A stretch of DNA of 64,000 nt from Leucobacter sp. wl10 (GTDB taxonomy: Bacteria; Actinomycetota; Actinomycetes; Actinomycetales; Microbacteriaceae). Of the stretch, positions 16,123-39,956 are shown in pieces. The translations under genes and the position numbers were made by a program. Below the pieces are notes generated by a model, which made no database searches, was not told the origin of the DNA, and saw nothing but the letters and a program-made list of their open reading frames with translations. Positions within the stretch are counted from its first letter, which is position 1. The number at the start of each line of letters is the position of its first letter. The stretch is from assembly GCF_003569785.1 (NCBI RefSeq), contig NZ_KZ983987.1:269853-333852 (forward strand), read 5' to 3'.

Positions 16123-16494
16123 GGGGCCGATCGGTTTCGACACGTCGATTTGAGACTGTGAGAAGCGGGCCGAGGACGCGGAGTTATCTCGTAAACGCCC
16201 TTCGCAAACCATAGGTGCCAACGCTAAGCGCACCGACTTCGCTCTCGCTGCCTAAGCACGAGACCGAGTCCGTCAGGTCGGGTGGGCCTCCGCCCCGGTT
16301 TCCTGGCGTCATCTAGGAGGCTTGCTGGTGCGTCGCGTCTCAGGGCGCACCGGGACTTGCACTGAGGCTGGGCCTGTCATCCTAGGTGTTCGTGACAAAG
16401 GATGGGGCCGAGTAGAACGCCTGCACGAACTACGCTCGTAGAAGGCACGGAATCGTCGAAGTGGACCGGGGTTCGATTCCCCGCGGCTCCACCA
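16123..16494 (+). ncRNA. ssrA: Transfer-messenger RNA (tmRNA)
   Basis: tmRNA rescues stalled ribosomes and tags the unfinished protein for degradation. The 5' end GGGGCCG pairs with the 3' CGGCTCC before ACCA, and the stem has the G-U pair at the third position that marks alanine tRNA. The T-arm GGTTCGATTCC precedes it and the CCA is encoded. The tag frame starts at 16217 and reads ANAKRTDFALAA before TAA at 16253-16255, a typical actinobacterial tag. The length of 372 bases is normal. Its protein partner smpB is 3.6 kb upstream. Identification is secure. Confidence 0.98.
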
Positions 16495-16975: not shown

Positions 16976-17755
16976 ATGGACAAGGTGTACGCATCGGCAT
17001 CCGAGGTCGTGGCAGACGTTCCATCAGGGGCATCGATAGCAGTGGGTGGATTCGGCCTCGTCGGAGTTCCGGTTACACTGATCCGCGCGATTCGTGACCT
17101 GGGTTCCAAAGACCTGGAGGTCGTCTCCAACAACTGCGGTGTCGACGGGTGGGGACTGGGAGAGATTCTCAGCACGGGGCAGATCTCGAGGATGATCGCC
17201 TCCTACGTGGGCGAGAACCATGAGTTCGCCCGGCGGTACCTCGGGGGTGAACTCGAGCTGGAGTTCACGCCGCAGGGCACCCTCGCGGAGCGCATGCGTT
17301 GCGGCGGAGCAGGGATTCCCGGTTTCTACACCGCCTCCGGGGTAGGCACCGTGATGGCCGACGGAGGCCTTCCCTGGAAGTACGACTCCACAGGGAAGGT
17401 GCTCGTCGAATCCCCCGCCAAGGAGACCCGTCGGTTCGACCGCTTCGGCGAAGGCCTGCAGTATGTGCTCGAGGAGGCGATCGTGACCGACTTCTCCCTC
17501 GTTCGCGCCTCCAAGGGAGACCGGTACGGGAATCTCGTTTTCAAGAAGGGGGAGCGCGCTTTCAGCCACGTCGTCGCCACCTGCGGTCGCGTCACCATCG
17601 CCGAAGTCGAGGAGCTGGTCGAGCCGGGCGAGATCGATCCCGACGACGTCGACATCCCCGGCATCTTCGTTCATCGCGTCATCGTCCAGACCGAGGAGGT
17701 CAGGAACGAGCTTCCCATCGAGAAGCGCATGACCCGACCGCGCGAAGCGGCCTAA
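16976..17755 (+). CDS. Family I CoA-transferase, subunit A (3-oxoacid type)
   Basis: This 259-residue protein is the alpha subunit of a heteromeric 3-oxoacid CoA-transferase (ScoA/AtoD/PcaI type), which moves CoA from succinyl- or acetyl-CoA to a carboxylic acid. The N-terminal [19 protein letters not shown] and [15 protein letters not shown] are characteristic. The ATG at 16976 is chosen for this standard beginning and for GGGAG ten bases upstream; in-frame ATGs at 16946 and 16955 are possible. It opens a nine-gene operon. The true acid acceptor (acetoacetate, 3-oxoadipate or other) cannot be fixed from the sequence. Confidence 0.9.
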
Positions 17756-17789
17756 CGACGACGTTCACCGACAGAATCCGGAGACCATC

Positions 17790-18455
17790 ATGACTTGGAC
17801 AAGAAACGACATGGCTGCCCGCGCGGCACTCGAACTGCCCGAGGGCGGCTACGTGAATCTCGGCATCGGGCTGCCGACGCTCATTCCCAACCACCTTCCC
17901 GAGGGACGCGAAATCATCATGCATTCGGAGAACGGCATCCTCGGCGTCGGACCGTACCCCTACGAAGGGGAGGAAGACCCCAAGCTCATCAACGCCGGAA
18001 AAGAGACGGTGACCGTCATCCCGGGCGCCGCCTTCTTCGACTCCTCCATGAGCTTCGGCATGGCTCGCGGCGGAAAGCTCGACGTCACGGTGCTCGGAGG
18101 CATGCAGGTATCCGCTCACGGCGATCTTGCGAATTGGACAGTGCCGGGCAAGATGATCAAGGGGCCCGGGGGTGCGATGGACCTCGTGCACGGCGCGAAG
18201 CGGGTCATCGTGCTCATGGAGCACCTCACGAAGGACGGTGAACAGCGCGTGCTCGAGGAGTGCACGCTGCCGCTCACCGGGGCCGGCGTCGTTTCCATGA
18301 TCATCACGAGCTACGGCGTGATGGACGTGACCGATGACGGGCTCGTCCTGCGCGAGGTCGCCGACGGTCTCACCGTCGACGAGGTCGTCGCCGCGACCGG
18401 GGCGCCTCTCATCGTCGATGCCGAGCTCCGAGTACTGGAGGGTGCCGCGGTATGA
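17790..18455 (+). CDS. Family I CoA-transferase, subunit B
   Basis: This 221-residue beta subunit carries the catalytic glutamate E47 in the SENGILG motif, which forms the glutamyl-CoA thioester intermediate. The N-terminal [16 protein letters not shown] is standard. It follows subunit A by 34 bases, and its stop overlaps the next gene in an ATGA junction. Together the two subunits probably activate or release a beta-keto acid made or used by the thiolases downstream. Confidence 0.92.
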
Positions 18456-19606
18456 GGAACGCGGCTATCGTCGGCGCCTTCGAACTCCCTCCTCAGCGCA
18501 CCACGCCCGGCGTCACGAGCCTCGAGATGATCGCCCGCGCCGCCAAGGGCGCTCTGGTCGACGCCGGACTGACCCCTCAGGACGTCGACGGGCTCATGAT
18601 CGGCCCTCAGGTCGGCGAGACGCCCCAGCACGCTCCGGCCGCGGTGTCCGAATACCTGGGGCTTCAGCCGGACTTCGCCGACATCGTGGATCTCGGCGGA
18701 GCCTCGGGGCCCGGAATGCTGTGGCGCGCCGCGGCCGCGATTTCCGCCGGAATGTGCAGCACCGTGCTCTGCGTTCTCGGAAACGCTCGAGACCTCGAAC
18801 GGGTCCCACGCTCGCCCAATCGCAACCCCATACGAGAGTTCGACGTGCCGTATGGCGCGAGTGGCGCCAATCAGGCGTATGCGATGGTCGCTCAGGCGCA
18901 CATGGCCGAGTTCGGAACGACCTCGGAACAGCTGGCGCAGGTGCCGGTGAAGCAGCGCAGGAACGCGATGCTGAACCCGAATGCCGTCTTCCACGGAAAG
19001 GAGATCACCGTAGACGACGTACTGAAGTCGCCGATGGTGATGTCCCCACTGCATCTGCTCGAGGTGGTGATGCCGTGCGGCGGCGGGGCGGCGGTCGTCG
19101 TGACCTCTCCGGAACGAGCGGCTGACCTTCGAAGAAAGCCGGTGTACTTGCTCGGTGCGGGCGAGAAGGTCACCCACCGAGCGCTGAGTCAGGCTCCCGG
19201 GCTGACCACCTCCCCCCTGTCGCAAGCCGTGGGTCGCGCGTACCGCATGGCTTCCGTCAGCGCGAGCGACCTGGACCTCCTGTCGATCTACGACTGCTAC
19301 TCGATCGTGGTCGCTGAGACGCTCGAGGATGCCGGGGTCTGCGCGAAAGGCGAAGCGGGACCGTGGCTGGAAGAAGCGGACTTCTCGATCAGCTCGACCT
19401 TGCCGATCAACCCGCACGGCGGTCAGCTGTCGACGGGTCAGGCGGATCTGGCCGGGGGGATGGGGCACCTGGTCGAGGCAGTGCTGCAGCTTCGAGGTGA
19501 CGCCGAGGGTCGACAGATTCAGGATCCCGAGCTGGCGCTCGTCACCGGTAACGGAGCGACCCTGAGCGAAGAGGTCGCGTTGGTCCTCGGAAGCTCGCGG
19601 GCGTGA
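18452..19606 (+). CDS. SCP2-type thiolase-fold protein lacking the nucleophilic cysteine
   Basis: This 384-residue protein has the thiolase fold of the SCP2/lipid-transfer (Ltp) group. The place where thiolases carry the nucleophilic Cys reads LGGASGP, with S85 instead, while the C-terminal NPHGG (320-324) and a tyrosine pair in IYDCYS (280-283) are kept. Such proteins form complexes with DUF35 partners; in steroid side-chain breakdown (Ltp2) they act as retro-aldolases on tertiary beta-hydroxyacyl-CoAs. The DUF35 gene follows by 23 bases and a MaoC hydratase is in the same operon, so an aldolase role is an attractive inference. A degraded or non-enzymatic role is the alternative. Confidence 0.85.
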
Positions 19607-19629
19607 ACGGCACGATTGGAGCAGAGGCG

Positions 19630-20085
19630 ATGAACGACGCGAAGAACTCGACGCGGAGCGATCCGGCAGGTGCGCCCCCGCGCCCCGGCCTGGTCACCAC
19701 TCCGCTCACCCAGCGCTTCTGGGACGCAGCGAACGACGACGAACTCCTCATCCAGCGCTGCCGGGACTGTGGTCATCGACAGCACTACCCCCGCAACATC
19801 TGCACCGGCTGCTGGTCGGAGCAACTCGAATGGCAAGCGGCTTCGGGCCGCGGCACGGTGTGGACCTTCACCGTGGTCGAGAAGCCCGGTCACCCCGCCT
19901 GGGCGGGCGAAACACCGTACACGATCGCACTCGTCGAGCTCGAGGAGGGCCCCCGCCTCATGACGCGTCTCATCGACTGCGCCCCGGACGGGGTGGCCGT
20001 CGGGATGGACGTCGTGCTACGCCCCACCCGCGACGAACAGCTCGGCCAGACCCTTATCACTTTCGCACCAGCGGCTTCCGACTGA
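19630..20085 (+). CDS. DUF35 / OB-fold zinc-ribbon acyl-CoA protein, partner of the SCP2-type thiolase
   Basis: This 151-residue protein has the DUF35 layout: an N-terminal helix, a rubredoxin-like zinc ribbon with C44, C47, C58 and C61 (RCRDCGHRQHYPRNICTGC), and a C-terminal OB fold beginning near GRGTVWTFTVVEKPG. Members bind acyl-CoA and activate SCP2-type thiolases. The ATG at 19630 has GGAG eight bases upstream; a GTG at 19603 that overlaps the previous stop is an alternative. Its direct succession to the cysteine-less thiolase gene strongly suggests a complex. Confidence 0.88.
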   Translation: MNDAKNSTRSDPAGAPPRPGLVTTPLTQRFWDAANDDELLIQRCRDCGHRQHYPRNICTGCWSEQLEWQAASGRGTVWTFTVVEKPGHPAWAGETPYTIALVELEEGPRLMTRLIDCAPDGVAVGMDVVLRPTRDEQLGQTLITFAPAASD

Positions 20086-20138
20086 TACGGAACCGGCAAG
20101 ACAAGGCCGATGAGGCCGACTGACAAGGAGGTCAGGAT

Positions 20139-21563
20139 ATGTCAACTGTGGACACACTCGACGACGAAGCGCGGGAGAGCTCCCCGGAAATGGCGAGGCG
20201 CGCCAAGTGGGGCAGCTTCATCGGGACCGCCATCGAATGGTACGACTTCTATCTCTACGGCACGGCCGCGGCGCTGGTCTTCAACCAGGTCTTCTTCACC
20301 GGCTTCGACGGGCCGACGGGCACGCTGCTCGCGTTGCTGACCTTCTCAGCAGGCTTCATCGCCCGACCGCTCGGTGGCGTCGTCATGGGCCACTTCGGCG
20401 ATCGCATCGGCCGAAAATCCATGCTGGTGCTCTCACTGATGACCATGGGTATCGCCACCACGCTGATCGGGCTGCTCCCGACTTACGCCTCCATAGGAGT
20501 GTGGGCGCCCATACTGCTCGTGACACTGCGCCTCATCCAAGGATTCGGGGTCGGAGGAGAGTGGGGCGGAGCCGTGCTCGTTGCCGTCGAGCACGCCCCG
20601 TCAACGCGGAGAGGTCTGGCCGGTTCATGGCCGCAAGTCGGAGTGCCCGTCGGGTTGTTCATGGCGAACGCCGTGATCATGATCACCGGTCTCACGATCG
20701 GTCCTGAGCAGTTCATCGCGTGGGGCTGGCGAGTGGGCTTCCTCGGTTCGGCTCTGCTGATCGCCGTCGGGCTGGTGATTCGCTTGAAGATGGAGGAGAC
20801 CCCCGACTTCACCAGGGTCAAGGAGGCCGAAGAGGTCGCCAAGTTCCCGGTCGCCGAGATGTTCCGGACCCAGTGGCGCAGCCTCCTCCTGGCCGCGGGG
20901 GTGAAGATCTCCCAGAATGCGATCTTCTACATCATCACGGTCTTCGTGCTGACGTATGTTGGCGATTCGCTGGGCATGAGCGATGACGTGGCGCTGGCGG
21001 GCATCATGATCGCCTGCGTCGTCAGCGTGTTCACGCTCATGCTCTTCGGGTGGCTATCGGACCAGTACGGACGTAGGCGGGTCTATCTTTTCGGTGCTAT
21101 CGCGTCCGCGGTATTCGCCTATCCGATGTTCATGCTCCTCGATACGAGGAACGTCATCCTCATCGGTGCGGCCATCGTGATCGCGATGGTCTTCCATGAC
21201 GCGATGTACGGCCCTCAAGCGGCGTTCATGACCGAGATGTTCGATCCGAAGGTCCGTTACACCGGCACCTCGCTCGGGTATCAGGCCGCTTCGACGGTCG
21301 CCGGAGCGGTATCTCCGGTCCTCGCGGTCTACCTGCTCCAGCTGGCCGACAATCGGCCCTGGGCTGTCGTGCTCTACATGATTGCCGTGAGTCTCGTCAC
21401 CATCGCGGCGACTGCGCTTTCGCCGGAGACCCATCGGGGTAACCGGAGCGGAGCCCGGCATGCGCCAGTCGGCATAGCCATCGGCGCGCGGACTGCGGGC
21501 GCCGGCTCGGTCGCCGGCGGCGAGGCCTCGGGGCTGTCGGCGCGAGTTTCAGATTCCCGGTGA
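20139..21563 (+). CDS. MFS transporter, metabolite:H+ symporter (MHS) type
   Basis: This 474-residue protein has twelve predicted helices and the MHS-family opening GTAIEWYDFYLYGTAAALVF, plus GGVVMGHFGDRIGRKSMLVL, the loop motif between helices 2 and 3. Relatives carry dicarboxylates, aromatic acids, shikimate or proline/betaine. A very strong AAGGAGGT lies upstream of the ATG. Its position inside the CoA-linked operon suggests it imports the operon's acid substrate. The last 30 residues are low-complexity and the stop overlaps the next gene. Confidence 0.9.
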   Translation: MSTVDTLDDEARESSPEMARRAKWGSFIGTAIEWYDFYLYGTAAALVFNQVFFTGFDGPTGTLLALLTFSAGFIARPLGGVVMGHFGDRIGRKSMLVLSLMTMGIATTLIGLLPTYASIGVWAPILLVTLRLIQGFGVGGEWGGAVLVAVEHAPSTRRGLAGSWPQVGVPVGLFMANAVIMITGLTIGPEQFIAWGWRVGFLGSALLIAVGLVIRLKMEETPDFTRVKEAEEVAKFPVAEMFRTQWRSLLLAAGVKISQNAIFYIITVFVLTYVGDSLGMSDDVALAGIMIACVVSVFTLMLFGWLSDQYGRRRVYLFGAIASAVFAYPMFMLLDTRNVILIGAAIVIAMVFHDAMYGPQAAFMTEMFDPKVRYTGTSLGYQAASTVAGAVSPVLAVYLLQLADNRPWAVVLYMIAVSLVTIAATALSPETHRGNRSGARHAPVGIAIGARTAGAGSVAGGEASGLSARVSDSR

Positions 21564-22789
21564 CGACCATGATGAAGCGTCGGCAGATGCTGCTGCTGGG
21601 AGCCGTGGTGGCCATGGGGCTCACCGTGTGGTTCTCCGCAACAGCGGTATTGTCGGCGCTTCGGACGGAACTGGGAATAGGGCAACTCGCAGCCGTATGG
21701 CTCACGGCTTCAGTGCAAATCGGATTCGTCACGGGCGGCATCGTGTCGTCGCTTCTCACCCTGGGCGACCGCTTCGAGCCTCAGCGCATCATGGGCCTCT
21801 CGGCATTCGGCGCGGGCGTGACCACCGCGAGCCTCGCGCTCGTGCCCCTGGAGTTCTGGGGTGCGATAGCGACGCGGTTCCTGACGGGAGTCTTCCTCGC
21901 CGGCCTCTACCCGATGGGCATGAAGGTGATGGCGAGCTGGGCATCGTCGAAAGAACGAGGCACGGCATTCGGGCTGCTTCTGGGCGCGCTCACGCTCGGG
22001 TCGGGGATGCCGCACCTGCTCACCGGGCTCGCAGACGCCCTTCCGTGGCGGGGCGTGCTCCTCATCGCGAGCGGCATCACCATCGCCGCCGGGGTGATCG
22101 CGCTGACAGGGCTCCGATCGGGTCCCCACACGAGTTCCCTGCAATCCGTGCCAAGAATCCGGCATGCCTGGGCGGGGTTTCGCTCTCGAGGACCGCTGCT
22201 CGCGAACCTCGGCTACTTCGGGCACATGTGGGAGCTCTATGCCTTCTGGACCTGGCTTCCCACCTTCTTGCTCGCCAGCCGGAAGGCCGCCGGCGAGCCC
22301 TCGAGCGCAGCCGGCATCGGCGTGACGACCTTCCTGGCCATCGGAGTGGCGGGTGTCGCGGGCTGCCTGATCGGCGGGTGGCTGGCCGACCGATTCGGGC
22401 GACGACTCGCAGCCGTGTCCGCGCTTGCGGTCAGCGGTGCGTCTTGCCTGATTTCTCCGGTCATGTTCGCGGTGACCGGCCCCGCGATGATCGTCTTCCT
22501 CGTCATCTGGGGGAGTTCCGTCATCGCCGATTCGGGGGTCTTCTCGACGTCCCTCAGCGAGAGCGTGGACCCGAGATACGTCGGGACCGCGCTGACCGCG
22601 CAGACGACCATAGGGTTCCTGATCACTGTCGTCACGATTCAGCTGGTACCGCTGGTGGCGCAGGCCTTCGGATGGCAGTACGCCTTCCTCGTGCTGGCCA
22701 TAGGACCCGTCGTCGGCGGCGTTGCGATGTTCATGCGGCGCGACCCCCGGCCGCTGGCCCTCGCGTCTCTCGAGCGAGGCGCCGCGTGA
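21560..22789 (+). CDS. Second MFS transporter
   Basis: This 409-residue major facilitator protein has twelve hydrophobic segments and the loop GGWLADRFGRRLAAVSALAV between helices 8 and 9. The GTG at 21560 overlaps the stop of the MHS gene (GTGA); an ATG at 21569 is also possible. It does not belong to the MHS group and resembles cyanate/aromatic-acid or drug-export MFS proteins only loosely. Two unlike carriers in one operon suggest import of one compound and exchange or export of another, but this is inference. Confidence 0.82.
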   Translation: MTTMMKRRQMLLLGAVVAMGLTVWFSATAVLSALRTELGIGQLAAVWLTASVQIGFVTGGIVSSLLTLGDRFEPQRIMGLSAFGAGVTTASLALVPLEFWGAIATRFLTGVFLAGLYPMGMKVMASWASSKERGTAFGLLLGALTLGSGMPHLLTGLADALPWRGVLLIASGITIAAGVIALTGLRSGPHTSSLQSVPRIRHAWAGFRSRGPLLANLGYFGHMWELYAFWTWLPTFLLASRKAAGEPSSAAGIGVTTFLAIGVAGVAGCLIGGWLADRFGRRLAAVSALAVSGASCLISPVMFAVTGPAMIVFLVIWGSSVIADSGVFSTSLSESVDPRYVGTALTAQTTIGFLITVVTIQLVPLVAQAFGWQYAFLVLAIGPVVGGVAMFMRRDPRPLALASLERGAA

Positions 22790-22850
22790 CGCGGAAGCCG
22801 AGCACCCCGTATACCCGTTCCGCAATTCCAACCAGAAGGAGAGGCTCAGC

Positions 22851-23276
22851 ATGAGCGATGAGACCGTCAACGGCCCTGCGGTGGGCCGGACTGCTGAAAT
22901 GTCGCGCGTAGTCACGCAGGACGACATCGTGAGATTCACCGCGATCAGCGGTGATGAGAACCCGATCCACTACGACGAGGAAGCGGCGAGGAACTCTCGT
23001 TTCGGAGAGATCGTCGTCCAAGGCGGGGTCACCAGTGCGATTCTGAACGCCGTCGTTGCTGAAAAGCTTCCAGGCCCCGGCACCGTTTTCTTGAACGTCA
23101 ATTGGGACTTCCAGGCCCCGGTTCGCCCGGGTGACACCATCACGGGACGGGTCGAGGTCGTCGAAGCCCGTCAGGACAAGCCGGTGACGAAGATCAAGAC
23201 CGAGGTGGTCCGCGATGACGGAACGGTCGTTCTGACAGGAACAGCGGTTTGCTACACCATGTCTCTGAGCCGATAG
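22851..23276 (+). CDS. MaoC-family (R)-specific enoyl-CoA hydratase
   Basis: This 141-residue single hot-dog-fold protein carries the hydratase-2 motif with catalytic D35 and H40 in SGDENPIHYDEEAARNS, followed by GGVTSAIL. It hydrates trans-2-enoyl-CoA to the (R)-3-hydroxyacyl-CoA. The ATG at 22851 has AAGGAG at good spacing. In this operon it could supply the beta-hydroxyacyl-CoA that the SCP2-type protein would cleave, or simply serve beta-oxidation. The small size implies a homodimer. Confidence 0.9.
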   Translation: MSDETVNGPAVGRTAEMSRVVTQDDIVRFTAISGDENPIHYDEEAARNSRFGEIVVQGGVTSAILNAVVAEKLPGPGTVFLNVNWDFQAPVRPGDTITGRVEVVEARQDKPVTKIKTEVVRDDGTVVLTGTAVCYTMSLSR

Positions 23277-23370
23277 GCGCAGCGGATTCGCCCGCCGTCA
23301 TCGCCGTTCGGCGCAGACGGCGGTCGGCTCTTCCTCTTCACACCCGGACGCACTGATAGGAGCACGATTC

Positions 23371-24528
23371 ATGTCCAACGAATCCCGGAAGCCCGTACTT
23401 GTCACGGCAGCCCGTACGCCCGTAGGGAGGTTCAACGGTGCGTTGAAAGACATCGATCCACTCGATCTCGGTGGCGCCGCGGTCCGCGCAGCGCTCGAGG
23501 GGGTCGAGGACATCACGCCCGAGCACGTGTTCATGGCTAACGTGCTGCAAGCCGGCAACGGCCAGAATCCGGCTCGCTCGGCCGCGATCCGCGGCGGCCT
23601 CCCTGCGACGGTGCCTGCGATCACCCTCAACAACGTCTGCCTCGCCAGCATGTACGCGGCTGGCATGGCCGCGACCATGATCCGAGCGGGCGAAATGGAG
23701 TCGGCGGTGGTCGGCGGCTTCGACTCGATGAGCAGGGCGCCTCATGCTCTTCAGATCAGGCAGGCGCCCAGGGTCGGAGACGCGTCGGCCGTCGATCTGC
23801 TCATGAAAGACGGTCTCTGGTGCGCCGTATCCGACTCGGGCATGGGGCCGATCGCCGATCGTGCAAACGCCGAGCTCGATATCTCCCGTGCAGACCAGGA
23901 TGCGTATGCTGTCGAGAGCCATCGACGTGCTCGAGCGGCGACCGAGAACGGCAACCTGGCCGCCGAGATCTCGCCGATGCCCGAGCTCGACACCGACGAA
24001 GGCATTCGGCCCGATTCGAGTATCGAGTCGCTCCAGCGACTTCGATCGGCCTTCACGGCCGGTGGAACAGTCACAGCCGGCAATGCGTCTCAGATGTCCG
24101 ACGCGGGATCCGCCGGACTCGTTATCACCGCGTCGCTGGCGAAGGCCCTCGGTCGAAAGCCGATCGTCGAAATCGTCGCCTCCAGCACGGTCGCCGGGCC
24201 CGACCCCTCGCTGCACCTCAAACCCGCGGCCGCGGCACGACGTCTTCTCGCGCAGGCCGGTATGAGCACGAGCGATATCGGTCTTTGGGAGGTGAACGAA
24301 GCATTCGCAGGCGTGGCGCTCGCAACCTCGCGCGACCTGGCGCTGGATCTCGACACGGTGAACGTCAACGGCGGTGCCATCGCGATCGGTCATCCGCTCG
24401 GCGCATCGGGGTTCCGCATCACCATGAGTCTCGCCCTCGAGATGCAACGACGCGGAGTCGAACACGGAGTCGCCACCATGTGCGGAGGCGGGGGGCAGGG
24501 GCAGGCCATCCTGTTGCGACTCCAGTGA
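23371..24528 (+). CDS. Acetyl-CoA C-acyltransferase (biosynthetic/degradative thiolase)
   Basis: This 385-residue thiolase keeps all catalytic elements: nucleophile C90 in NNVCLASM, the NEAFAG loop, the histidine in AIGHPLGASG, and the second cysteine in MCGGGGQGQA. It cleaves 3-ketoacyl-CoA with CoA to release acetyl-CoA, or runs in reverse. Unlike the other thiolase-fold protein of this operon it should be fully active. It follows the hydratase by 94 bases and precedes the regulator by 15. Confidence 0.94.
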   Translation: MSNESRKPVLVTAARTPVGRFNGALKDIDPLDLGGAAVRAALEGVEDITPEHVFMANVLQAGNGQNPARSAAIRGGLPATVPAITLNNVCLASMYAAGMAATMIRAGEMESAVVGGFDSMSRAPHALQIRQAPRVGDASAVDLLMKDGLWCAVSDSGMGPIADRANAELDISRADQDAYAVESHRRARAATENGNLAAEISPMPELDTDEGIRPDSSIESLQRLRSAFTAGGTVTAGNASQMSDAGSAGLVITASLAKALGRKPIVEIVASSTVAGPDPSLHLKPAAAARRLLAQAGMSTSDIGLWEVNEAFAGVALATSRDLALDLDTVNVNGGAIAIGHPLGASGFRITMSLALEMQRRGVEHGVATMCGGGGQGQAILLRLQ

Positions 24529-24543
24529 GCAGGAGGCCGCCGG

Positions 24544-25830
24544 GTGCTCCTGTGGGACAATGAGGCGATGAACCCACAGGGGAAGCAGGGGAGCGAAGTA
24601 CTCTCGGACCCTCTCCTGCTCCCGGTCATCCAGCATCTGGCTGACAACGCCGAAGCGATAGGCGAGAGGCTGTTGGAGGCGTATACGGACGAGATCGTCG
24701 ACTACCGGTCGCTCCCCGAGGGATACCTCAGCAGAGATGTGGCCGACATGGCCCGCAGAAACCTGCTCACGCTTCTGTCGTGGTTGAGCGGTGAAGTCGA
24801 TGAGGCCCGCAGCCTCGAAGAGTTCCGCAATAGCGCCGTCAGACGTTTCCGTCAGGGAGTATCCGTGCAAGCCCTGCTCCACGCATATCGCGTGTGGGGG
24901 CAGGTGGTCTGGAACGAGATCGCTCGTCTCCCCGTATGCCAGACCTCTCCGGCGACCGGCTTCACCGTCGCCGGAGAGGTCATGCGCTACGTCAATCGGG
25001 TCTCCCTGGCGGTCGCCAACTCCTATCTCGAAGAGGCTGAAGACGTCATCCAAGATCGTCAGCTCGCTGAACGAGACGCGCTCGAGGAACTCCTCTCGAG
25101 TTCTCTGATATCGGAGCGCGTCGCCAGCTACCTGACTCGTCTGGGAACGCATCTCCGCCAGGAGCACCGCGTGCTCCTTCTGCGCAGACGTCACTCGACC
25201 GCGAGCGAACCGCACGATACCCGGGACGGCCTGGCGGCCGTCCGTCGCTTCCTCGCTCGAGACCCCCGGTACCGCCCCCTCATCGGACTCCGCGAGGATG
25301 AGATCGTCGTCGTGCTTCCCATGCCGGAGGAGCGCAAGCTCTCCATACGCGAGGTCGCCGATGACCTGGCCAGATCACTCGATGCATTTGTCGTCGGCGT
25401 GAGCCGCGCCCACGAGGGGGAGGCGCAGGTCGCCACGGCGTATCGTGAGGCCGCGGACGCTTCTCGAGTGGCATATGCTCGAGGAGATCGGCGAGCCTAT
25501 TTCTACACAGATGTCCTGCTGCAGAGCGTGATCGACAGATCTGGGTTGGGGGACGTCGTGCACGCCGAGACCGTCGCCCCGCTCATCGCGTACGATCGCA
25601 AGCACGGATCGAAGCTGTCGGACACCCTCCGGGCGTACATACTGCACCGCCTCAACCTGACCCGCACCGCCGAAGAGCTGAGCGTTCAACCGAATACGGT
25701 CCGTTACCGGCTGGACCGCATTCGCGAGCTTTCGGGGAGGGACCCGAATCATCCGGACGATCTCATCCTGCTGGCTCTAGGCGTGAGGATCGACCCCGGC
25801 TCCTCGCATGAGGGGCCGGGCGGATCCTAG
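24544..25830 (+). CDS. PucR/CdaR-type transcriptional regulator
   Basis: This 428-residue protein ends with the PucR-type helix-turn-helix (LNLTRTAEELSVQPNTVRYR, about residues 371-390). The middle carries a GGDEF-like CdaR domain and the N-terminal 160 residues are helical and may sense a ligand. The GTG start at 24544 has AGGAGG seven bases upstream; an internal ATG 24 bases later has no usable site. Such regulators usually activate catabolic genes in response to the substrate. Being the last gene of the operon, it probably also controls its own level. Confidence 0.88.
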   Translation: MLLWDNEAMNPQGKQGSEVLSDPLLLPVIQHLADNAEAIGERLLEAYTDEIVDYRSLPEGYLSRDVADMARRNLLTLLSWLSGEVDEARSLEEFRNSAVRRFRQGVSVQALLHAYRVWGQVVWNEIARLPVCQTSPATGFTVAGEVMRYVNRVSLAVANSYLEEAEDVIQDRQLAERDALEELLSSSLISERVASYLTRLGTHLRQEHRVLLLRRRHSTASEPHDTRDGLAAVRRFLARDPRYRPLIGLREDEIVVVLPMPEERKLSIREVADDLARSLDAFVVGVSRAHEGEAQVATAYREAADASRVAYARGDRRAYFYTDVLLQSVIDRSGLGDVVHAETVAPLIAYDRKHGSKLSDTLRAYILHRLNLTRTAEELSVQPNTVRYRLDRIRELSGRDPNHPDDLILLALGVRIDPGSSHEGPGGS

Positions 25831-37677: not shown

Positions 37678-37761
37678 GTTCGGGCCCGGTGAGGCGCCCC
37701 ATCGCCTACGATGTGGGGCAGACTCTCTCCTCGCGACGATCCCGACCGGTGGTGTGCCCCG

Positions 37762-39012
37762 ATGACCCGTTTCCAGCCCCTCGAAGGCGTCCGCGTGCTC
37801 GAGCTCGGCAACTACATCGCCGCGCCCACGGCCGGCCGGCTCCTCGCCGACTTCGGCGCCGACGTGATCAAGGTCGAGCGGCCACGCACCGGGGACGAGC
37901 TGCGCAGGTGGCGCCTGCACCGCGGCGACACCTCGATGCTGTACCGCGCTGTCAACCGCGGCAAGCGATCCGTCGTCGTCGACCTCCGCGGCGATGAGGG
38001 GCGGGGGATCGTGCTCGACCTGATCCGCCGCTCCGACGTGCTGCTCGAGAACTTCCGACCGGGCACGCTCGACCGGTGGGGGCTCAGCGAGGAGGCGCTC
38101 GAGGCCGCGAACCCGGAGCTGATCGTCGCGCGCGTCTCGGCCTTCGGCCAGACCGGGCCGCTCTCCGACCGCCCGGGGTTCGCGGCGGTGGCCGAGGCCT
38201 ACGGCGGCTTCCGAGAGCTCGTCGGCGAGCCGGGGAGGCCCCCGAGCCGCACAGGGTTCTCGATCGGAGACACCATCGCGGGCGTCTACGCGGCGTTCGG
38301 CGTGGTGATGTCGCTCTTCGATCGGCTGCGGGATCGCGATCGCGGATCCGGAGCCCCTGTCCGCCCCTCGCTCGGCGACCGCACGATCGACGTCGCGCTC
38401 AACGAGGTGATGCTCTCGGTAACGGAGTCGCTCATCCCCGACTGGGAGGCCTACGGAGTGCGTCGCGAGCGCACGGGCGGACGCATGGAGGGGATCGCGC
38501 CGTCGAACGCCTACCTCTGCGGCGACGGCAGGAGCATCGTGGTGTCGGGCAACGGCGACTCGATCTTCCAGCGGTACATGGCGGCCATCGGGCGGGAGGA
38601 CCTCGCCGCCGCACCCGAGCTGCAGTCGAACGAGGGCCGGTGGGCCGCCCGCGAGAGCCTCGACGAGGCCATCGGCGCCTGGACTGCGGCGCGCACGAGC
38701 CGGGAGGCGCTGCGGATCCTCGACGACGCCGGAGTGCCCTCGGGCCCGATCTACACGGCCGAGGACGTGTGCTCCGACGAGCAGTACGCCGCCCGCGACA
38801 TGGTGCAGCGCTTCGACGTGCACGACGGTGAGGGGCTGCTCGAGGACGTGGGGTTCCCCGGGATCGTGCCCGTGTTCGGCGGGCGCTCCCTGCCGATCAC
38901 TCACGTCGGTCCTGATCTCGGCGAGCACACGGGCGAGGTGCTGCGCGAGCTCGGCTGGGACGATGCGGCCGTGGAATCGTACGTCGGGACTCACGAGGAG
39001 GCGCCGCGATGA
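37762..39012 (+). CDS. Class III (CaiB/BaiF) CoA-transferase
   Basis: This 416-residue protein belongs to the family III CoA-transferases, which shuttle CoA between carboxylic acids or act as racemases. The opening PLEGVRVLELGNYIAAPTAG, DVIKVERPRTGDELR and VVDLRGDEGRG are typical. At the site where many members carry the catalytic Asp (RPGYD) this protein reads RPGFAAVAEAYGG, a form also seen in a subfamily, so activity cannot be excluded. It overlaps the next gene by four bases (ATGA), an HMG-CoA-lyase-family protein, which suggests one activates a hydroxy acid and the other cleaves it. Confidence 0.87.
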   Translation: MTRFQPLEGVRVLELGNYIAAPTAGRLLADFGADVIKVERPRTGDELRRWRLHRGDTSMLYRAVNRGKRSVVVDLRGDEGRGIVLDLIRRSDVLLENFRPGTLDRWGLSEEALEAANPELIVARVSAFGQTGPLSDRPGFAAVAEAYGGFRELVGEPGRPPSRTGFSIGDTIAGVYAAFGVVMSLFDRLRDRDRGSGAPVRPSLGDRTIDVALNEVMLSVTESLIPDWEAYGVRRERTGGRMEGIAPSNAYLCGDGRSIVVSGNGDSIFQRYMAAIGREDLAAAPELQSNEGRWAARESLDEAIGAWTAARTSREALRILDDAGVPSGPIYTAEDVCSDEQYAARDMVQRFDVHDGEGLLEDVGFPGIVPVFGGRSLPITHVGPDLGEHTGEVLRELGWDDAAVESYVGTHEEAPR

Positions 39013-39956
39013 CCGCGGTGGCGGACCGGGCGGAGATGTCGGCACCCGTGCAGATCCGCGACGTCACCCTGCGCGACGGCCTGCAGCTCGTCGGCCGACC
39101 CCTTCCGACCGAGCGCAAGGTGCGCCTCGTGCGCGAGCTGCTCGCCCTGGGCGTCGAGCACGTCGAGGTGGGATCGATGGCCCGTGCCGACCTCGTGCCG
39201 ACCCTCGCCGACTCACTCGATGTGATCGCCGCGCTCACGGAGGCGGAGCGCGAGCGGGCCTGGCTGTGGGTGGCGACGCCGCGGCACGTGGAACGCGCCG
39301 TGGCGGCGGGGGCCAGGCGCCTCCAGTACTGCTTCTCGGCCTCCGACGGCCACAACCGCGCCAACATCGGTCGCGACACCGAGGCCTCGCTCGCGGCCAT
39401 GCCCGACGCGCTCGCCGCGGCCCGCGAGTCGGACGCGACCGTGCAGCTGTGCATCGCGACCGCCTTCACCTGCCCGTTCGAGGGCGCGGTGCCGCTCGAG
39501 CGCTTCGCGAGCATCGTGACGGACCCTCGCACGGAGGGCGCCGTCGATGTGGTGATCGCGGACACTCTCGGCCAGGCGCACCCCGCCGAGGTCGGGGAGC
39601 GGGTCGCCCTCGCGGCGCGCGAGCGTCCGGAGCTCGGCATCGTGTTCCACGGTCACGACACCTGGGGGCTCGGGGCGGCGAACGCCGCGGCCGCGGTCCG
39701 GAGCGGCGCGACGGTGGTGGACGGCGCGCTCGCGGGTCTCGGCGGGTGCCCCTTCGCCCCGGGGGCGTCGGGCAACACCGCGACGGAGGACCTCGTGTTC
39801 GCGCTCCGCCCGAGCTGGGCGTCGCCCGGATCCTTCGCCGGGCTCGTGCGCCTCGGCGAGGAGGTCTCAGCCGCGCTCGGGGAGCCGAACCGTTCCCGCG
39901 CGCGGGCCGGGGCGCGCAGCCGGGCCGAGGCGTTCGAGTGGGTCGTCGCCGACTGA
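39009..39956 (+). CDS. HMG-CoA lyase / homocitrate-synthase family aldolase
   Basis: This 315-residue TIM-barrel protein matches 3-hydroxy-3-methylglutaryl-CoA lyase. Seen are the opening RDVTLRDGLQLVGRPL, SASDGHNRANIG, the metal-binding HGHDTWGLG and the loop GLGGCPFAPGASGNTATED with the catalytic cysteine. HMG-CoA, citramalyl-CoA or a similar tertiary hydroxyacyl-CoA is the likely substrate. Coupling to a class III CoA-transferase suggests catabolism of a branched dicarboxylic acid. The exact compound is not deducible. Confidence 0.88.
   Translation: MTAVADRAEMSAPVQIRDVTLRDGLQLVGRPLPTERKVRLVRELLALGVEHVEVGSMARADLVPTLADSLDVIAALTEAERERAWLWVATPRHVERAVAAGARRLQYCFSASDGHNRANIGRDTEASLAAMPDALAAARESDATVQLCIATAFTCPFEGAVPLERFASIVTDPRTEGAVDVVIADTLGQAHPAEVGERVALAARERPELGIVFHGHDTWGLGAANAAAAVRSGATVVDGALAGLGGCPFAPGASGNTATEDLVFALRPSWASPGSFAGLVRLGEEVSAALGEPNRSRARAGARSRAEAFEWVVAD

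Follow-up and report, generated by a model that had tools for sequence, protein, structure and literature searches.

A probably mobile operon of Leucobacter sp. wl10 holding a new clade of DUF35-paired putative aldolases, with a predicted role in small-acid and acetoacetate metabolism

A nine-gene operon was analysed in a 64,000-nucleotide stretch of the genome of Leucobacter sp. wl10 (contig NZ_KZ983987.1), referred to here as the window. It occupies positions 16976-25830, with all nine genes intact and on the + strand, and it encodes the two subunits of a 3-oxoacid CoA-transferase (CtfA and CtfB, together CtfAB), an SCP2-type protein of the thiolase fold, a DUF35 protein, two transporters, a MaoC hydratase, a thiolase and a regulator (Table 1). 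The operon is real, rare and probably mobile, and it holds a new clade of the DUF35-paired kind of aldolase. Judged from sequence, the best reading is that a small acid would be broken down through a retro-aldol step, with acetoacetate metabolism as a part of the pathway and not an alternative to it.

The gene order and the domains given by the first-pass annotation were borne out by the open reading frames and the domain matches. Overlaps of 4 bases join two gene pairs (CtfB/SCP2 and MHS/MFS), and the DUF35 gene has an alternative in-frame GTG at 19603 that overlaps the SCP2 stop. The gene arrangement goes beyond chance, because all nine genes recur, identically ordered and at 68-87% identity, in a genome from another family of the same order (G823, locus L033). 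A scan for promoters and terminators returned no promoter-like site (1.3 expected) and four terminator-like sites (3.5 expected). In total, 23 copies of the SCP2 gene were found and 21 were examined, namely nine plasmid records, six sampled genomes, five named genomes and the window; plasmid records H3 and H8 were left out. Near-duplicates occur among the 21 loci (L015/L020, L018/L050, L019/L035), and the counts given below are not counts of independent events.

The nearest PDB relative of the SCP2 protein was CtSal (9myr_A), the bile-acid aldolase of Comamonas. When a true thiolase (7yvy) was aligned, its nucleophilic cysteine was found to coincide with Gly83. The earlier suggestion that this nucleophile had been replaced by Ser85 was right as to the loss and wrong as to the position: residue 85 lies two residues further on, is Ser, Thr or Ala within the clade, and was ruled out as a nucleophile, the position being occupied by Gly83. 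The description of the protein as “cysteine-less” also failed, as five cysteines are present, one of them Cys282 within a YDCY motif. The alignment comprised 36 rows (21 from the clade, 11 others and four PDB chains); L007 (broken first copy) and L014 (partial match) were left out. Gly83, Tyr280 and Cys282 of the YDCY motif, Gln325 and Gln330 were invariant in all 21 clade rows, as were 128 of the 384 alignment columns across these members of two phyla. The hallmarks of SCP2 thiolases (Cys, HDxF and GHP) are missing in the clade, which has Gly83, YDCY and GQA, GQP or GQS instead, while four thiolase rows of the same alignment (L008, L011-L013) retain Cys, HDCF and GHP. Gln325 and Gln330 are the equivalents of CtSal Gln347 and Gln352. 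In the excerpt of the CtSal paper used here (PMC12329534), CtSal is reported to have Gly at the nucleophile position as well, activity was nearly gone in the Y302F variant and abolished in C304A, C304S and C304H, and roles are proposed for Gln347 and Gln352 in activating Cys304 and for Gln161 as oxyanion hole. Retro-aldol cleavage rather than thiolysis is the probable chemistry of the SCP2 protein on the basis of these residues.

The best PDB relative of the DUF35 protein was the DUF35 chain of CtShy (9myr_B), and the operon's own gene is the one PF01796 match in the genome. The zinc ribbon is of the C4 type (C-x2-C-x10-C-x2-C) at 21 of 21 loci. At 20 of them the DUF35 gene lies at most 45 bases from the SCP2 gene, and in L005 it follows 1.3 kb on. 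On this proximity and the homology to chains A and B of 9myr, the DUF35 protein is the putative partner of the SCP2 protein. MaoC is a separate single-domain protein close to the (R)-specific enoyl-CoA hydratases; its GDENPIH motif, which we take to be catalytic, was present in each of the 18 clade loci having the gene. The combination of an aldolase-type SCP2 protein, DUF35, MaoC and transporters, as originally recognised, is supported, and no sign of a steroid setting was seen, though steroid ring genes were not looked for one by one.

In a maximum-likelihood tree, rooted at the midpoint and carrying a long-branch warning for TcLtp2 and other rows outside the clade/Sal part, the 21 rows formed one group (support 100/98) with members from Actinomycetota and Alphaproteobacteria. 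Its sister consists of four rows termed Sal-like, CtSal and three others (join 100/99), which group apart from the clade (100/100). Between the alignment anchors, the beta4-alpha4 segment comprises 21-22 residues in the clade, 38 in CtSal, 35-41 in the three other Sal-like rows and 31 in TcLtp2. The clade loop is consequently about 16 residues shorter than that of CtSal and about 9 shorter than that of TcLtp2, the latter figure being less sure owing to the loose alignment there; by the paper's own limits, as given in the same excerpt of PMC12329534, the loop has 30 residues in CtSal and 18 in TcLtp2. The motif NRNPIRE was found in this loop in every clade row and in no other row. Every clade member has Arg113, Arg120, Arg124 and Arg128, and of these Arg113, Arg124 and Arg128 differ in CtSal and TcLtp2. 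The arginines are read as a putative pocket for a small acyl chain bearing a carboxylate, and the substrate of the SCP2/DUF35 pair is very probably small.

Both CtfAB subunits exceed the curated cut-offs for 3-oxoacid CoA-transferases and are closest to succinyl-CoA:3-ketoacid (acetoacetate) CoA-transferases (SCOT), subunit B of such an enzyme being the best PDB relative of CtfB (3cdk_B); acetoacetate specificity is predicted. The SENG motif of CtfB is presumably that of the family. CtfA is the sole TIGR02429 match in the genome, and no acetoacetate-CoA ligase (AACS) above the cut-off was found in it, so CtfAB is the likely activator of any acetoacetate formed. Across the clade, the gene preceding SCP2 belongs to the acetoacetate/acetate-CoA ligase family at 19 of 21 loci, with an interrupted reading frame in the records of L006 and L032, and is CtfB at the other two (the window and L033). 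The six ligases tested of the ten in sub-clade A (L016-L019, L030, L035) all scored above both acetoacetate-CoA ligase cut-offs. A MaoC gene was found at 18 of 21 loci, and so was a thiolase gene; in the seven alphaproteobacterial loci the thiolase is a more distant homologue (39-44%) on the opposite strand. In L016 an annotated TIGR00366 family protein and an acetyl-CoA acetyltransferase lie alongside. One aldolase clade thus goes with acid activators of three kinds, and two of these are known for acetoacetate. Because the activator swaps between a true acetoacetate-CoA ligase, a related ligase and a SCOT-type CoA-transferase, acetoacetate is the best-supported intermediate, and we favour it, with some reserve, as the product of the aldolase step; the lower half of the route would therefore be the ordinary acetoacetate pathway.

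This runs counter to the initial proposal of a route departing from the acetoacetate pathway: with AACS at all six tested sub-clade A loci and SCOT-like CtfAB in the window, acetoacetate handling seems to be built in. The proposed small branched or aromatic acid keeps its size on the sequence evidence, and nothing found points to an aromatic one. A beta-ketoadipate operon was rejected on the sole TIGR02429 match noted above, a thiolase score of 242.2 bits against a pcaF cut-off of 597 and the lack of a ring-cleavage gene among the nine. A role of CtfAB as an IpdAB-like ring hydrolase was likewise rejected: CtfA matched SCOT chains at 1e-74 or better and 6co6/6coj at about 1e-6. The latter two entries, titled “probable CoA-transferase alpha subunit”, represent IpdA.

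The operon as a whole would allow a small organic acid to be taken up and fully degraded via CoA thioesters, with SCP2/DUF35 retro-aldol cleavage and acetoacetate finishing, a proposal that we consider about evenly balanced. The acid would be taken up by the MHS and MFS symporters, as their families suggest, and CtfAB would transfer CoA onto it from succinyl-CoA or acetoacetyl-CoA. MaoC would hydrate the 2-enoyl-CoA to a beta-hydroxyacyl-CoA; where no MaoC was seen, the substrate may already be a beta-hydroxy acid on entry. The SCP2/DUF35 pair, with Tyr280 as base and Cys282 as acid in the manner proposed from the CtSal mutants, would then yield an acyl-CoA and a ketone. Going by the family specificities and the acetoacetate-CoA ligase swaps, the ketone would be acetoacetate, to be re-activated by CtfAB and split by the thiolase to two acetyl-CoA. 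The simplest substrate engaging every conserved enzyme would be 3-hydroxy-3-methylglutarate (HMG) and/or 3-methylglutaconate, with HMG-CoA giving acetyl-CoA and acetoacetate. They would fit because the acid has two carboxyl groups, forms a tertiary beta-hydroxyacyl-CoA as its CoA ester and gives these two products on cleavage. HMG-CoA itself is a tentative choice of substrate. Somewhat more doubtful is a reading in which the pair, relying on a Tyr/Cys dyad without an active-site metal, would be a thiolase-fold HMG-CoA lyase for HMG-CoA or a closely related thioester, the operon being a self-contained HMG/3-methylglutaconate route.

Several observations weigh against this pathway. The equivalent of CtSal Gln161 is not kept, being Ala in the SCP2 protein, with the following Asn kept. 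Ten other thiolase-fold rows have a beta4-alpha4 segment of 21-26 residues, so only the motif is distinctive and not the shortness; four true thiolase rows likewise have an Arg at the position of Arg128, and the loop arginines could bind CoA phosphates instead of a substrate carboxylate. An AlphaFold2 model of the SCP2 protein (10 rows) reached a pLDDT of 56.1, too poor for use. The ligases of sub-clade B, itself more weakly supported (93/92), reached neither the acetate nor the acetoacetate cut-off in five of five cases tested of nine (L003, L005, L015, L029, L034). A sugar-type module beside the alphaproteobacterial copies, described below, is unexplained by the HMG model and ties to no substrate; HMG esters of plant glycosides would be one conceivable link. 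Finally, a gene pair downstream of the operon (37711-39956, see below) may offer an HMG-type acid another route, of the classical kind.

The sub-clade B scores would also suit the same retro-aldol reaction on another small substrate, such as an acid of the itaconate, glutaconate or senecioate type, from which pyruvate, malonate semialdehyde or acetone would arise; in that case CtfAB would only activate the acid, and the thiolase would serve a neighbouring beta-oxidation. This explanation has a modest chance. It is favoured further by SCP2/DUF35/MaoC clusters with TTT or TRAP transporter genes (L045, L046) and by L030-L032, where neither MaoC nor thiolase was seen, an absence to be relied on only in L030, where 20 kb were covered (of the L031 and L032 contigs, 29.4 and 5.8 kb long, 14.4 and 5.8 kb were read). 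What counts against it is that the clade recurs with true AACS or SCOT-type CtfAB, activators of the acetoacetate type that are unrelated to each other, and with an intact acetyl-CoA acyltransferase. The opposite simplification, a plain operon for the utilisation of acetoacetate or short 3-ketoacids in which SCP2, DUF35 and MaoC act on acetoacetyl-CoA or are accessory, is rather unlikely. Although CtfAB and thiolase are the standard acetoacetate pair and the smallest loci consist of AACS-SCP2-DUF35-MHS, the thiolysis nucleophile is absent at 21 of 21 loci with the aldolase residues kept, an intact thiolase is already in the operon, and the hydratase would have no obvious role on acetoacetyl-CoA.

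A bulky substrate (a steroid, terpenoid or aromatic side chain), as in Sal or Ltp2, is improbable. The shorter pocket segment (less surely so against TcLtp2), the C4 instead of C3H1 zinc ribbon (though TcChsH2 is also C4), the separate single-domain MaoC and the single DUF35 in the genome argue against it, even if the closest solved relative is a steroid aldolase and an FMO-type gene lies beside the L034 copy. The loss of the thiolase nucleophile would finally be explained if the SCP2 protein were a degenerate, non-catalytic thiolase kept as a scaffold; given the invariant columns in two phyla, including both residues essential in CtSal, we consider this the least credible explanation of all. 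The retro-aldol breakdown of a small acid, finishing through acetoacetate, is retained as the best reading.

Table 1. Features of the operon in the window, with the evidence for each assignment
Feature	Position	Strand	Evidence
CtfA, 3-oxoacid CoA-transferase subunit A (SCOT/PcaI type)	16976..17755	+	TIGR02429 220.4 bits, cut-off 128.5; best PDB relatives SCOT
CtfB, 3-oxoacid CoA-transferase subunit B, SENG motif	17790..18455	+	TIGR02428 323.2 bits, cut-off 243.55; best PDB relative 3cdk_B
SCP2-type thiolase-fold protein, putative acyl-CoA retro-aldolase	18452..19606	+	Gly83, Y280-D-C282-Y, Q325, Q330; PDB 9myr_A (CtSal) E 1.9e-92
SCP2 residues 113-129 (codons), shortened beta4-alpha4 loop (R113, R120, R124, R128)	18788..18838	+	NRNPIRE in 21/21 clade rows, 0/15 others
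DUF35 protein (C4 zinc ribbon + OB fold), putative SCP2 partner	19630..20085	+	PF01796, PF12172 above cut-off; PDB 9myr_B E 5e-24
MHS-type metabolite/H+ symporter	20139..21563	+	TIGR00883 433.8 bits, cut-off 443.45; shikimate transporter model 402.8, cut-off 538
Second MFS transporter	21560..22789	+	PF07690; TIGR00881/TIGR00893 weak
Single-domain MaoC hydratase, GDENPIH motif	22851..23276	+	PF01575; PDB 1iq6, (R)-specific enoyl-CoA hydratase, E 1.3e-20
Intact acetyl-CoA C-acyltransferase (thiolase)	23371..24528	+	TIGR01930 370.9, cut-off 240.55; Cys, GHP, CGGGG motifs
PucR/CdaR-type regulator	24568..25830	+	PF13556, PF17853 above cut-off

Two of the remaining assignments were narrowed. The MHS transporter fits its family, with a score just under the TIGR00883 cut-off, and the supposed PucR-type activator is a regulator of the PucR/CdaR type, the family match saying nothing of activation versus repression.

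The operon is flanked by ssrA (16123-16494) on one side and by an AraC-type gene (26722) on the other. In a genome of the same genus (G096, L068) these two genes are about 170 bases apart, without the operon, and in L064, L065 and L069 they are separated by 7.5-9.6 kb without matches to CtfA, SCP2 or PucR; at the remaining four of the eight same-genus loci, ssrA was not in the stretch examined. Third-position GC was 0.74-0.83 across the nine genes and 0.89-0.92 in three flanking ones. Since this interval is variable in the genus and the third-position GC is lower, the operon was probably gained horizontally at a variable site behind ssrA. At 37711-39956, 12 kb downstream, a CaiB-type CoA-transferase gene overlaps an HMG-CoA-lyase-like gene (203 bits, cut-off 246); the best model for the former was succinate-glutarate CoA-transferase, far below its cut-off.

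The SCP2 protein was searched for in overlapping genome samples, with only the best few candidates scored per genome and a threshold of E ≤ 1e-100. Matches were obtained in 5 of 398 genomes of the family and 3 of 297 of the order, the own genome included in both; in the phylum sample the own genome was the single match among 396; none of the nine other same-genus genomes of the family sample had one. Named genomes, scanned with patterns of the window protein, yielded 13 relatives, and the five at 69-73% came from Amycolatopsis, Tamaricihabitans, Prauserella (two) and Sciscionella. A plasmid scan gave 11 records at an identity of at least 60%. The L020 copy is that of pRHL1 in the laboratory strain Rhodococcus jostii RHA1. 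No SCP2 relative was found on viral contigs.

The annotated alphaproteobacterial copies (L016-L019, L035) adjoin a module of GntR, SDR, class II aldolase and sugar ABC transporter genes, with a kinase and a second SDR where the stretch reaches; its two arrangements relative to these copies suggest a functional link. In a genome of the family (L029, 305-10356), same-strand genes for an ABC transporter, an SDR, PF09370 and UPF0261 proteins and an old-yellow-enzyme-like reductase precede the cluster. In the G1032 copy (L034, 13289-14833) an FMO-like flavin monooxygenase gene directly follows the thiolase. More distant SCP2/DUF35/MaoC clusters (L043-L046) come with CaiB-type transferases or AMP ligases, and in two cases TTT or TRAP transporter genes are present as well; they are probably other non-steroid uses of the trio. 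A Dehalococcoidia contig (L007, 6261-9699) carries two tandem SCP2-DUF35 pairs, about 45% identical to the window protein and with a broken reading frame in the first SCP2 copy.

In the literature examined, those DUF35-paired thiolases without a nucleophile for which aldolase activity is proven have steroid side chains as substrates, and no publication on the NRNPIRE clade was found in the open-access papers searched. If the proposed reading is true, the same aldolase chemistry would also serve small-acid metabolism, in two phyla and together with acetoacetate enzymes, and proteins of the clade annotated as “thiolase family protein” and “OB-fold protein” would become testable aldolase pairs. 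The operon would also be a specific candidate for the way in which bacteria use acids of the HMG type. The bee symbiont Snodgrassella alvi consumes HMG by a route whose first two steps are unannotated, according to the excerpt of PMC11343714 used; if the HMG-CoA lyase reading holds, relatives of the clade could be candidates for these steps.

Among known systems, CtSal-CtShy of Comamonas testosteroni (9myr; PMC12329534, in excerpt) shares with the clade the YDCY dyad, both glutamines, the glycine at the nucleophile position and a DUF35 partner. It differs in its longer loop segment without NRNPIRE and in CtShy, where MaoC is fused to a DUF35 with a C3H1 zinc finger, whereas the clade has a separate MaoC and a C4 ribbon and stands outside Sal as its sister. 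TcLtp2-ChsH2 of Thermomonospora curvata (6ok1) belongs to the same retro-aldol family and has the base Tyr of the YD motif (Tyr294) and a C4 DUF35 partner (TcChsH2); its catalytic acid Tyr344 is Gln in the clade and in CtSal, and its His296 is Cys in the clade. In the archaeal complex of acetoacetyl-CoA thiolase, DUF35 and HMG-CoA synthase (6esq), an SCP2-type thiolase fold and DUF35 also surround HMG-CoA chemistry, as proposed here; there the thiolase is joined to the synthase (excerpt of PMC12329534), while the window protein has no nucleophile. Rv2498c of Mycobacterium tuberculosis, a CitE-like, Mg-dependent (R)-HMG-CoA lyase, converts HMG-CoA to acetyl-CoA and acetoacetate (PMC6689899, in excerpt). 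The overall reaction proposed here would be the same, carried out by another family, a thiolase fold with a putative DUF35 partner. Acetoacetate utilisation by SCOT or AACS with acetyl-CoA acetyltransferase has its counterpart in the CtfAB or AACS and thiolase in or beside most clade loci, beyond which the operon has the SCP2/DUF35 pair, the MaoC hydratase and the MHS and MFS transporters.

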